A stretch of 64,000 nucleotides of DNA. Source: Halorubrum salipaludis (GTDB lineage Archaea; Halobacteriota; Halobacteria; Halobacteriales; Haloferacaceae). The stretch spans positions 124,001-188,000 of the forward strand of contig NZ_NSKC01000003.1 of NCBI RefSeq assembly GCF_002286985.1. Reading direction: 5' to 3'. Of the stretch, positions 50,177-53,432 are shown piece by piece. The notes beneath the pieces are model-generated. The model was not told the DNA's origin and ran no database searches. It saw only the letters and a list, made by a program, of their open reading frames with translations. Position 1 is the first letter of the stretch, and every line of letters starts with the position of its first letter. A program made the position numbers and the translations under genes.

Positions 50177-50674
50177 TTACAGCAGGAACGTCTCCTCTTC
50201 TTCCGCGAGGTCGACGAAGTCGTCGGCGGCCTCGATCAGTTCGTCGGCCGCGGAGTTGCCGAAGCCCATCGCCTCGACGCGGACGCCCTCGTGCCGGAGG
50301 TGCGAACAGAGCCGGGCGAAGTCGCCGTCGCCCGTACAGAGCACCACCGTGTCGACGTGGCTCGCGAGCGAGACGGCGTCGAGGCTCATTCCGAGGTCCC
50401 AGTCCGCCTTCTTCGACCCGTCGGCGAACGTCTTGATGTCCTTGATCTTCGTCTCGAAGCCGATGCCGCGGAGCGCCTCGAAGAAGCTCTCCTCCTCCGG
50501 GGAGTCGGCCCGGATCACGTACGCGATCGCCCGGACGAGCGACCGGTCGTTGACGGCCGCCTCGAGCAGTCCCGAGTAATCGATGTTGCGAGAGTACACG
50601 CTCTGGGCGGAGTGGTACAGGTTCTGCGAGTCGGCGAGCACCGCGACGCGCTGATCGGGGTGGATTTCGGTCAT
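50177..50674 (-). CDS. NYN/LabA-like PIN-fold protein
   Basis: 165 residues. Acidic residues of the NYN (DUF88/LabA) nuclease-like fold are visible: VLADSQNLYHSA near 12, the KKADWDLGM segment near 88, and LCTGDGDFARL near 112. The family is predicted to act as a metal-dependent RNase, although not all members are active. It is a single gene between dapE (convergent) and the binding-protein gene (divergent). The RNA target is unknown. Confidence 0.85.
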   Translation of the reverse strand: MTEIHPDQRVAVLADSQNLYHSAQSVYSRNIDYSGLLEAAVNDRSLVRAIAYVIRADSPEEESFFEALRGIGFETKIKDIKTFADGSKKADWDLGMSLDAVSLASHVDTVVLCTGDGDFARLCSHLRHEGVRVEAMGFGNSAADELIEAADDFVDLAEEEETFLL

Positions 50675-50780: not shown

Positions 50781-52685
50781 GTGCGACAGCAGTATTCTAC
50801 TCCTGGAAATATTAGCGAAAAACATATTCATCGGCGACGGTATCTCTCCGCGCTCGGCACCACCGGTGTCGCGACGCTCGCCGGCTGTTCCGAGCGGGGC
50901 GGCGAGGGGAACGGCGGCGAGACCAAAACAGACGGTCCCAATGGGGGGGACGGTGGCGATACCGTTGATATCGGCGATTTCCCGCAATTCGGCGTTGACG
51001 ATCTACACGGCGAGGAGATAGCCCGCGAGCTCGCACAGCAGGCATTCGAGCAGTCAGAGTACGACTACGGCTTCGACGGCGGCAACTTGGTCTCCCCGGC
51101 GGGCGATCAGGTGGAGCTGGATATCTACCACAGCACGGGACAGGAGACCTCGCGGCTTACCGCCGAGTTTATCGCCAAGGAACTTGGTGAGAATCTCGGC
51201 ATTGACGTCGCCGTCGAGGCGATCGACAGCGTCCGGTTCAACAACGAGCACTGGGTTGCCGAGCCGAGAGGTGGTACCGACACGGTTGACGGGAACACGG
51301 TCGAGTGGGCGAGTCCGACACCGCAGAACCCCGGCCCGCGTTCCGTCACGAGCAGGGAGCCGTGGGACATGTCGACCGTGTTCGGACTGAACACCCATCC
51401 TCTGAACCCACTGACGAACGAGCTGTTTTTCGCCGGCGCGGATTCGTCCTACAATCCAGTTGGCTACTACCCCCGGTTCAACGCACGGGAACTGTTCGAG
51501 GATGCCGGGAAGGCGACGAACCCTGCTGAACTCCGAGAGGCGGTCGTCGAGATCCTCGAGAACCTCGCCCGCGAGCAGCCGTACATCACGCTGCTGTTCA
51601 GCGACGACCTCGTCGGCTACACCTCCAAGCTTAGCGGGCCGGCCGAGAACTTCTCGAACGGATGGGACTTGCCGGCGTGGTACTTTACCGATCCCGCAGT
51701 CTCTGGCTCGTACGACAGCGTTACCTCGGCCGCGTTCGAGACCCTGAACCCGCTGTATCACACAGAGGGCAGCGAGCGGATAGCGATCGGTCGCGCGCTC
51801 GATCGGGGATATACGTTCGACGAGAATCAGGAGTACTTCCCGCTCTTGTACGACATGTCCACCGAGCACGGAGCAGTGTGGACGTTCGAGGTCCGCGAGA
51901 ACCTCCGGTTCAGCGAACCATACGGGCAGGTTACTGCCGAGGACTTCGTCTATCTGATTCAGGAGCTCCACCAGTCCGACTGGGCGAACACCGCCGCGTC
52001 GACCAGCTGGGACGGCGTCGAGGTCGAACAGACCGGCAGGTTCGAGTTTCAGGCCACGCTCGAACGGCCCACCCTCCTGTGGCCCCAGTCGTACGACCCG
52101 CTCCTGTACCCGATTCCGCGCGGCCTCGTCGAGCCGTACGTCGAGGAGGAGGACGCGGACGGCCTCGAACAGGACGAGGAGCTGCTCGAACTACGCTTCA
52201 CCGGCAACCTCGGCGCGTTCACGCTCGACGAGTGGAACCGTGGATCCGGGACAACATACACCCGCAACGACGAGTACTACCTGCGCGACATCGACGAGGG
52301 GTCCGACCCGTTTCCGGGGGTACCGCTCTTTGAGGCGGCCTCGATCAGCGTCGTTCAGGAGCAGGCGTCTCACCTTGAGGCGCTCGAAGCCGGCGAGATC
52401 GACTCGGCCGCCATCCCGCTGGAGCAGTACGAGTCGTATGACGGGAGAGATGCCGTGACGCTCCGGCGGATCCCCACGTCTTACAGCACGGTTCTTTCCG
52501 TGAACCAGCGGGACAACGGGTGGGGAACCGGTCCGGGTAACTTGTTCCAACACGTCTCATTCCGGCAGGCGGTGGCCTCGGCGATCAGCAAAGACCGGCT
52601 CATCCAAGACGTCTATCGCGGACTCGCTGAGCCGCAGTTCACTTGGCAGCCCCGCTGGTCCGACTTTCACCCGGCCAACGCCTAA
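50781..52685 (+). CDS. family-5 solute-binding lipoprotein with permuted halves
   Basis: 634 residues from a GTG start. A Tat signal (HRRRYLSALG) leads to a lipobox ending at Cys36, then a glycine-rich tether. Residues about 66-303 correspond to the C-terminal half of a DppA/OppA-type protein (LDIYHSTGQETSRLTAEFIA to GWDLPAWYF). Residues about 309-634 correspond to the N-terminal half (TLNPLYH, WTFEVRENLRF, QVTAEDFVY, FTGNLGAFTLDEWNRG, SFRQAVASAISKDRL). The protein ends at WQPRWSDFHPANA, where a normal family member would continue into the residue-66 region. It is thus an apparent circular permutation. No permease or ATPase genes are adjacent. Confidence 0.8.
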   Translation: MRQQYSTPGNISEKHIHRRRYLSALGTTGVATLAGCSERGGEGNGGETKTDGPNGGDGGDTVDIGDFPQFGVDDLHGEEIARELAQQAFEQSEYDYGFDGGNLVSPAGDQVELDIYHSTGQETSRLTAEFIAKELGENLGIDVAVEAIDSVRFNNEHWVAEPRGGTDTVDGNTVEWASPTPQNPGPRSVTSREPWDMSTVFGLNTHPLNPLTNELFFAGADSSYNPVGYYPRFNARELFEDAGKATNPAELREAVVEILENLAREQPYITLLFSDDLVGYTSKLSGPAENFSNGWDLPAWYFTDPAVSGSYDSVTSAAFETLNPLYHTEGSERIAIGRALDRGYTFDENQEYFPLLYDMSTEHGAVWTFEVRENLRFSEPYGQVTAEDFVYLIQELHQSDWANTAASTSWDGVEVEQTGRFEFQATLERPTLLWPQSYDPLLYPIPRGLVEPYVEEEDADGLEQDEELLELRFTGNLGAFTLDEWNRGSGTTYTRNDEYYLRDIDEGSDPFPGVPLFEAASISVVQEQASHLEALEAGEIDSAAIPLEQYESYDGRDAVTLRRIPTSYSTVLSVNQRDNGWGTGPGNLFQHVSFRQAVASAISKDRLIQDVYRGLAEPQFTWQPRWSDFHPANA

Positions 52686-52721
52686 TTGATTCCCTTCGAG
52701 CGGGGGAACAGTCACTCGCCG

Positions 52722-53432
52722 CTACTTTGGTAGTTCTGTATCGCCGTCAACGACCACTGTCGGATCGCTACTGGCTCCGCCGTTCTCGCGGTCGGAATTC
52801 CGGTCCGCCAGGACGACCGTTCCCCCGACCGAGAGCGGCGCGACCACGCTCCCGGCCAGCGTCCGCGGGTCCGAGAAGTCACCTCGAAGAACGACCCGAG
52901 TGTCGGAGTTTATGCCGTACCGGTCGACGACTGCGGAAGCCGCCGCGAGGAGGTCGCGGTGAGTGACCTCGCTGTCGGCGACACGGACAACCGGGTCGCC
53001 GGGGTCGACGTCGCTCGGCGGCGTCGCGGGGTTCTCGCTCCACAGCTCCTGCTCCCAGTGCGTCGTTTCGGGGCGGTCCGGCGGGCCGCCGAAGACCGCG
53101 AGCTTCGTGCCGGGCGCCGGCTCCGCGCCGGCCTCGTAGGCCACGTCGACGAGCACCACGCGATCGCCTCGTTCGAGCCCCAGCGCCGGGTCGAATCGGA
53201 CCGGAGCCCCCAGCCCCGCGGCGCCCAAGAAGGCGAGCGTCGTGTGAAACCCCGGCGTCGGCTCGACGGCGACGGTCGAGCCCTCGCGGGCGCCGAGGTA
53301 GCGCAACACGTTGGCGGCCTTGTACGCGTTGGTGATCAGGTCCCGGTACGTGCGCTCGCGTCCGTCCGGCGTGACGAGCGCGGTCTCGCGGCTCCGGCGG
53401 TCGCGATCGAGCAGATCGCCGACGACGTCCAT
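52722..53432 (-). CDS. short AMP-binding (acyl-CoA synthetase-like) protein
   Basis: 236 residues resembling only the N-terminal part of acyl/acetyl-CoA synthetases (ALVTPDGRERTYRDL, VLRYLGAREGSTVAVEP). The TSGTTGxPK nucleotide loop and the lysine-bearing C-terminal domain of active enzymes are missing. It ends with a short variable tail. It may be a conserved shortened paralogue or a decayed gene. A clear TATA box supports the start and suggests that it is expressed. Confidence 0.68.
   Translation of the reverse strand: MDVVGDLLDRDRRSRETALVTPDGRERTYRDLITNAYKAANVLRYLGAREGSTVAVEPTPGFHTTLAFLGAAGLGAPVRFDPALGLERGDRVVLVDVAYEAGAEPAPGTKLAVFGGPPDRPETTHWEQELWSENPATPPSDVDPGDPVVRVADSEVTHRDLLAAASAVVDRYGINSDTRVVLRGDFSDPRTLAGSVVAPLSVGGTVVLADRNSDRENGGASSDPTVVVDGDTELPK

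Follow-up and report, generated by a model that had tools for sequence, protein, structure and literature searches.

Locus and part order of the window protein

The window, which is the whole stretch of 64,000 nucleotides of Halorubrum salipaludis analysed here, carries a 634-codon open reading frame at 50781-52685 on the forward strand, which begins with GTG and is uninterrupted by internal stops. SBP_bac_5 was the sole Pfam family found on the whole protein, in two stretches, and the score for PF00496 (140.9 bits, against a gathering cut-off of 32.4) satisfied membership of this family. The features of the gene and its surroundings are as follows.

50177..50674, reverse strand: upstream neighbour, an NYN-domain protein (PF01936, 6.3e-37), a synteny marker found at permuted and canonical loci
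50781..50885, forward strand: Tat signal peptide with the twin/triple arginine motif RRRYLSALG, ending in the lipobox LAG/C (read from the sequence); it precedes permuted and canonical relatives alike
50886..50975, forward strand: lipid-anchor Cys36 and a Gly/Asp-rich linker (read from the sequence), whose length varies across all relatives
50976..51689, forward strand: canonical C-terminal part (residues 66-303), placed first; Pfam profile 266-348, aligning with AppA 347-502
51690..51704, forward strand: new junction linker from the old C-terminus to the old N-terminus (PAWYFT-DPAVS-GSYDSV); 5-7 residues between BLAST segments in 14/14 permuted proteins listed
51705..52682, forward strand: canonical N-terminal part (residues 309-634), placed second and ending at cut A (FTWQPRWSDFHPANA); Pfam profile 14-251, aligning with AppA 35-320
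52686..52721, no strand: site of dppBCDF in relatives (about 4.6 kb), empty in the window (tblastn with H. lipolyticum DppB, DppC, DppD and DppF)
52722..53432, reverse strand: downstream neighbour, a short AMP-binding-enzyme-like protein (PF00501, 1.9e-9), a conserved synteny marker

Residues 362-627 of the protein matched positions 14-251 of the SBP_bac_5 profile, and the part from residue 66, tested separately, matched positions 266-348. The normal linear order of the profile is thus not met, 266-348 standing ahead of 14-251; linear order is a trait of the canonical members and lies outside Pfam's membership rule. The original prediction had proposed that the two halves were swapped (66-303, then 309-634), and this was confirmed by the Pfam order and by alignment with AppA (1XOC). 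The profile of 14 permuted homologues aligned with 1XOC in three pieces in swapped order, query 263-572 with chain residues 35-320, 39-90 with 347-397 and 142-228 with 419-502, whereas the profile of canonical homologues was colinear with the chain. The prediction that the Tat signal and the lipobox were kept in an open frame (RRRYLSALG, LAGC with Cys36, no internal stop) also held. The twin arginine motif, the hydrophobic stretch and the lipobox Cys in RRRYLSALGTTGVATLAGC fulfil, by reading of the sequence, what is expected of a haloarchaeal Tat lipoprotein. This shows that the new N-terminus carries a complete Tat signal, lipobox and linker.

The two junctions were then compared with canonical proteins. 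In the permuted proteins, the old C-terminus (..NGWDLPAWHF) leads into (E)DPSVS-GSYDTV, and canonical proteins of other genera end with ..FPTWHFEE or PTWHFEE before the stop and start after the lipoprotein linker with ..LPSVSGTYNS or PSVSGTY. Because these canonical ends and starts match the fused joint, little beyond the stop, the signal and the linker of the second copy was lost in the fusion. The length of the seam was nearly constant in all permuted proteins, which is the expectation for one event. At the other joint, the canonical proteins of Halorubrum have a short acidic loop (..FYP-PEE-EIPQFGVG..). It had been suggested that the end and the start of the window protein would join naturally, and the canonical protein of Halorubrum genome G009 indeed reads ...YTWQPRFTDFYPGD-D-DLPQFGMGDEYGREFARDLAQ... 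without a break, matching FTWQPRWSDFHPANA at the end and DFPQFGVDDLHGEEIARELAQ at the start. In the AlphaFold2 model of a canonical protein, which was of low quality overall with region 340-410 fairly confident, the cut loop lay between strand 312-315 and helix 343-356. These results show that the parts were swapped at a loop immediately ahead of the first helix of the second half (cut A) and that a short linker fuses the old termini. With canonical homologues carrying the parts in the other order and junctions at loops, the placement of which comes from a low-quality model, the test for a natural circular permutation was met.

The mean pLDDT of the AlphaFold2 models was 54.8 for the permuted protein and 56.3 for the canonical control, and both models were too poor to use. 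A Foldseek search with the poor model gave only weak matches (E > 0.001), nearly all top ranks of which were substrate-binding proteins. As the canonical control fared as poorly as the permuted protein, the predicted fold gives no support.

Permuted and canonical forms in Halorubrum

Among 59 genomes searched, 13 further Halorubrum genomes had the order and the junction of the window protein, and 10 other Halorubrum genomes had the canonical order at 57-66% identity; genome G033 carried one divergent canonical gene in addition to those 10. Some of the permuted genomes lay on contigs of 2.7-2.9 Mb. Four more permuted cases were found in a second collection, which was scanned with a permuted-only alignment. 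The permuted form in this collection occurred in Halorubrum salsamenti, lipolyticum, halophilum, kocurii and saccharovorum, in Halorubrum amylolyticum, sodomense, ezzemoulense, coriense and yunnanense, and in several strains or bins, and all other matches of the scan, including those of Natronomonas aquatica, Saliphagus, Halobellus, Halovenus and Halolamina, were canonical. In the permuted gene of Halorubrum sp. CSM-61 (L039), the signal peptide stands in another frame, which may be local decay or a sequencing error; the same may apply to the broken frames and the stop in DppB at a canonical locus (L047, genome G016).

The flanks were common to permuted and canonical Halorubrum loci wherever the contig reached them. 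DapD-LysA-DapF-DapE-NYN lay upstream in many loci, and AMP-binding-cupin-DnaJ-DnaK lay downstream; in a subset of species with either form, the upstream side differed and the downstream side was the same. In H. salsamenti (L033), an insertion of about 2 kb lies between dnaJ and dnaK, which is absent in the window. The permuted form was thus shown to occupy the locus of the canonical form in sister species, mostly ahead of an intact dppBCDF operon.

The permuted proteins formed one clade in three trees (support of 94/95; SH-aLRT 97; 99), and each half analysed separately recovered this clade with SH-aLRT of 99 and 95. As both halves have the same phylogeny, one gene was rearranged, and unrelated halves were not fused. 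These results show that the permuted form arose once in Halorubrum. For a marker gene at a distance of about 30 kb, however, a single clade of the permuted species was rejected (p-AU 1.9e-105), and permuted and canonical species interleaved in the DppBCDF tree (p-AU 1.6e-110). The transporters of the permuted H. sodomense, H. ezzemoulense, H. coriense and relatives were 88-90% identical to those beside canonical proteins. This is most simply read as transfer of the binding-protein gene from species to species at a conserved locus. Alternatively, an ancestor may have had both copies and its descendants lost one or the other, but no one genome was seen to hold the two together.

Two ways in which a permutation could be mimicked were considered. 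The window gene taken alone could be misassembled, and tandem paralogous binding-protein genes do occur in haloarchaea, where adjacent matches were seen, so that a canonical pair might be collapsed into one gene by assembly or annotation. Yet 13 further independently assembled species and four from another collection share the order and the junction, and we regard such an artefact as practically ruled out. The circular permutation is real: it recurs in many independent assemblies, and sister species carry canonical orthologues at this locus, which excludes misassembly and chance. The fusion of two unrelated half-proteins has a precedent in discussion, as the authors of the Tp0684 study raised the possibility that the permuted part of their protein had been acquired from a different gene (PMC4990184). 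We believe this to be very improbable here, since each half of the permuted clade is monophyletic and has the same canonical relatives around it, and both halves of a permuted Natronomonas protein (see below) are closest to the same canonical protein, with 80% and 73% identity. A tandem duplication whose outer halves were then lost had been offered as a possible route to the swap. The junctions are compatible with this part of the prediction, but no tandem-duplicate intermediate was found.

The dppBCDF transporter and the fate of the window copy

The original prediction had stated that no transporter subunits were nearby. This was true for the window by tblastn, where the neighbouring permease and oligopeptide-type ATPase genes (two of each) expected beside the binding component of a Dpp/Opp importer are absent, but in most permuted relatives dppBCDF lies immediately downstream of the gene. 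In most of these relatives, the four downstream genes were of full length and free of stops; those of H. lipolyticum encode two permeases (PF00528) and two oligopeptide-type ATPases (PF00005, PF08352). A single clade, made up of the window, H. salsamenti, H. halophilum and H. saccharovorum, has no operon, and a separate loss took place in H. yunnanense, where a DppC remnant of 46 residues persists. No close DppC was found elsewhere in the genome of the window, the best being about 35% identical, and other Dpp-type permeases are present in this genome. The missing transporter is a secondary loss in the lineage of the window. The divergent canonical copy of G033 (L055), at the same locus, is also without dpp genes, so transporter loss with the binding protein retained seems to have occurred more than once.

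Among permuted proteins, dN/dS was 0.11-0.36 for every pair except one with H. amylolyticum, which gave 0.46. In view of this range and of the intact operons beside permuted forms, the permuted protein most likely serves the importer that the canonical one serves, an inference made without ligand or expression data. Pairs that included a transporter-less member had dN/dS of 0.2-0.36, compared with 0.11-0.20 for close transporter-bearing pairs. The proteins of the window lineage, with dN/dS of 0.2-0.3, tended to have longer branches, and both features could point to an ongoing loss of function. The transporter-less proteins of the window lineage and H. yunnanense are orphans, on which constraint is weakened but still present.

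What the orphan does now may be read in two ways. The gene of the window species may be a decaying remnant after transporter loss, though the permuted form works in relatives. The absence of dppBCDF in all five species, the longer branches, the raised dN/dS and the lack of any DppC closer than about 35% point in this direction. The open reading frame, however, is intact in 5/5 transporter-less species, third codon positions still hold most substitutions, and the transporter-less clade comprises several species, and we hold decay to be a tentative explanation that falls somewhat short of an even chance. Purifying selection that persists without the operon in several species, in a genome that carries other Dpp-type permeases, would also suit a sensor or a scavenger for another ABC importer; direct evidence of a partner is lacking, and we place this possibility on a level with decay.

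Whichever of these applies to the orphan, we are confident, with some reservation, that the gene product is the substrate-binding lipoprotein, in circularly permuted form, of a Dpp/Opp-type (SBP_bac_5, cluster C) ABC importer; it was probably exchanged between species and is an orphan in the lineage of the window, and its fold, ligand binding and uptake are inferred. In OppA-type structures, both termini lie in lobe 1. Because both termini of this class are in the same lobe, the usual fold and ligand cleft are inferred to be kept, and, judged from the same structures, the lipid tether would have moved from lobe 1 to lobe 2. The long flexible linker may tolerate a tether on the other lobe, so that either form could feed the same transporter. 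We infer that an in-frame tandem gene duplication, of which the outer parts were then lost, gave the permutation, and that it spread among Halorubrum species via homologous exchange at the locus. The lineage of the window later lost the transporter genes, and the orphan protein may now serve another importer or slowly decay.

Other permutations in Halobacteria and comparison with known systems

An order-wide search also found permuted matches outside Halorubrum. The protein of Natronomonas genome G319 (L144:7413-9308) is permuted at a different point, cut B, which follows cut A by about 35 residues; it stands beside an intact dpp operon and is known from one genome only. Its nearest relative is the canonical protein of Natronomonas aquatica (L105), with 77% identity overall and 80% and 73% by half. 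Neither a grouping of the G319 protein with the permuted clade of Halorubrum (p-AU 0.004; by half, 0.03 and 0.02) nor a single group of all permuted proteins of this set (p-AU 0.001) was accepted, both being rejected by the test. This shows that the Natronomonas permutation is independent of that in Halorubrum, a result that rests on one genome. A further 16 proteins with 32-37% identity were permuted at cut B. The tree requires four changes, three of which are forced by well-supported branches.

The genome of the window carries a second permuted binding protein of another family, also with cut B (G000:C1:439579-441525; L174:5580-7526). This family occurred in 140/243 Halobacteria genomes and was permuted in 21/21 members read. 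Part of it had been taken for canonical on the basis of broken alignments, which were misleading; reading of the proteins showed that all were permuted. Searches with PF00496 in eight haloarchaeal genomes and one more gave further permuted proteins, and L225, L226, L227, L230, L232 and L237 are permuted SBP_bac_5 proteins from several haloarchaeal genera with A-like or B-like cuts. In the other sampled classes of the phylum, outside Halobacteria, nearly all SBP_bac_5 matches were in normal order. Two odd matches there were checked, of which G427 proved canonical and G433 possibly represents a permutation of another kind. The non-haloarchaeal G433 protein (L236:796-3165) is family-5-like, with profile 149-353 ahead of 28-133 at weak scores, and has a C-terminal PGF/hydrophobic anchor in place of a lipobox.

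The Halorubrum protein is no isolated oddity, as several permutations exist among the binding proteins of haloarchaea. We consider it reasonably probable that the family-5 binding proteins of haloarchaea are a natural permutation hotspot, in which the chain has been opened anew in several independent events at two loops, one on each side of a single helix, with permuted and canonical forms freely interchangeable on the same ABC importer and the tethered lobe switchable. The claim of a haloarchaeal hotspot was compared only with other classes of the same phylum, without a bacterial control, and the number of independent events behind the older permuted families was not resolved. If the hotspot reading is true, the position of the lipid tether, on lobe 1 or lobe 2, is evolutionarily switchable. 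Inference of a natural circular permutation usually rests on remote relatives; in the present case, the permuted and canonical orthologues are 57-66% identical (77% in Natronomonas), and in Halorubrum they share one locus and about 90% identical transporters. With close orthologues at one locus, the origin, tolerance and functional cost of a permutation are directly testable in culturable archaea. The case also provides a natural test of whether the identity of the membrane-tethered lobe matters for a binding protein, and it suggests that many permuted binding proteins go unrecognised under their family annotation. In the literature searched, which left most subscription papers outside its coverage, no report was found of permuted family-5 or cluster C binding proteins or of permuted haloarchaeal ones.

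The closest known proteins are the canonical family-5 (DppA/OppA-type) proteins of haloarchaea, such as those of Halorubrum G009 at the same locus and Natronomonas aquatica L105, which belong to the same family (57-66% identity) and have the same Tat/lipobox N-terminus, dppBCDF operon and, in Halorubrum, neighbours; their part order, in contrast, is normal. One study has shown that Tp0684 (MglB-2) of Treponema pallidum, placed in 'Cluster Bc', is a naturally permuted, tethered ABC binding lipoprotein that still binds its ligand, and that its permuted part is poorly conserved and of uncertain origin (PMC4990184). Unlike the window protein, Tp0684 is bacterial, has a type I / cluster B glucose-binding fold and is cut differently; the window protein is SBP_bac_5 by sequence and does not meet membership of the Tp0684-like Cluster Bc. 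AppA of Bacillus subtilis (1XOC) is of the same family and fold class and aligns with both parts, but its order is canonical. The second permuted protein of the window genome is likewise an SBP_bac_5 Tat lipoprotein and differs from the first in its cut B and its order-wide family.
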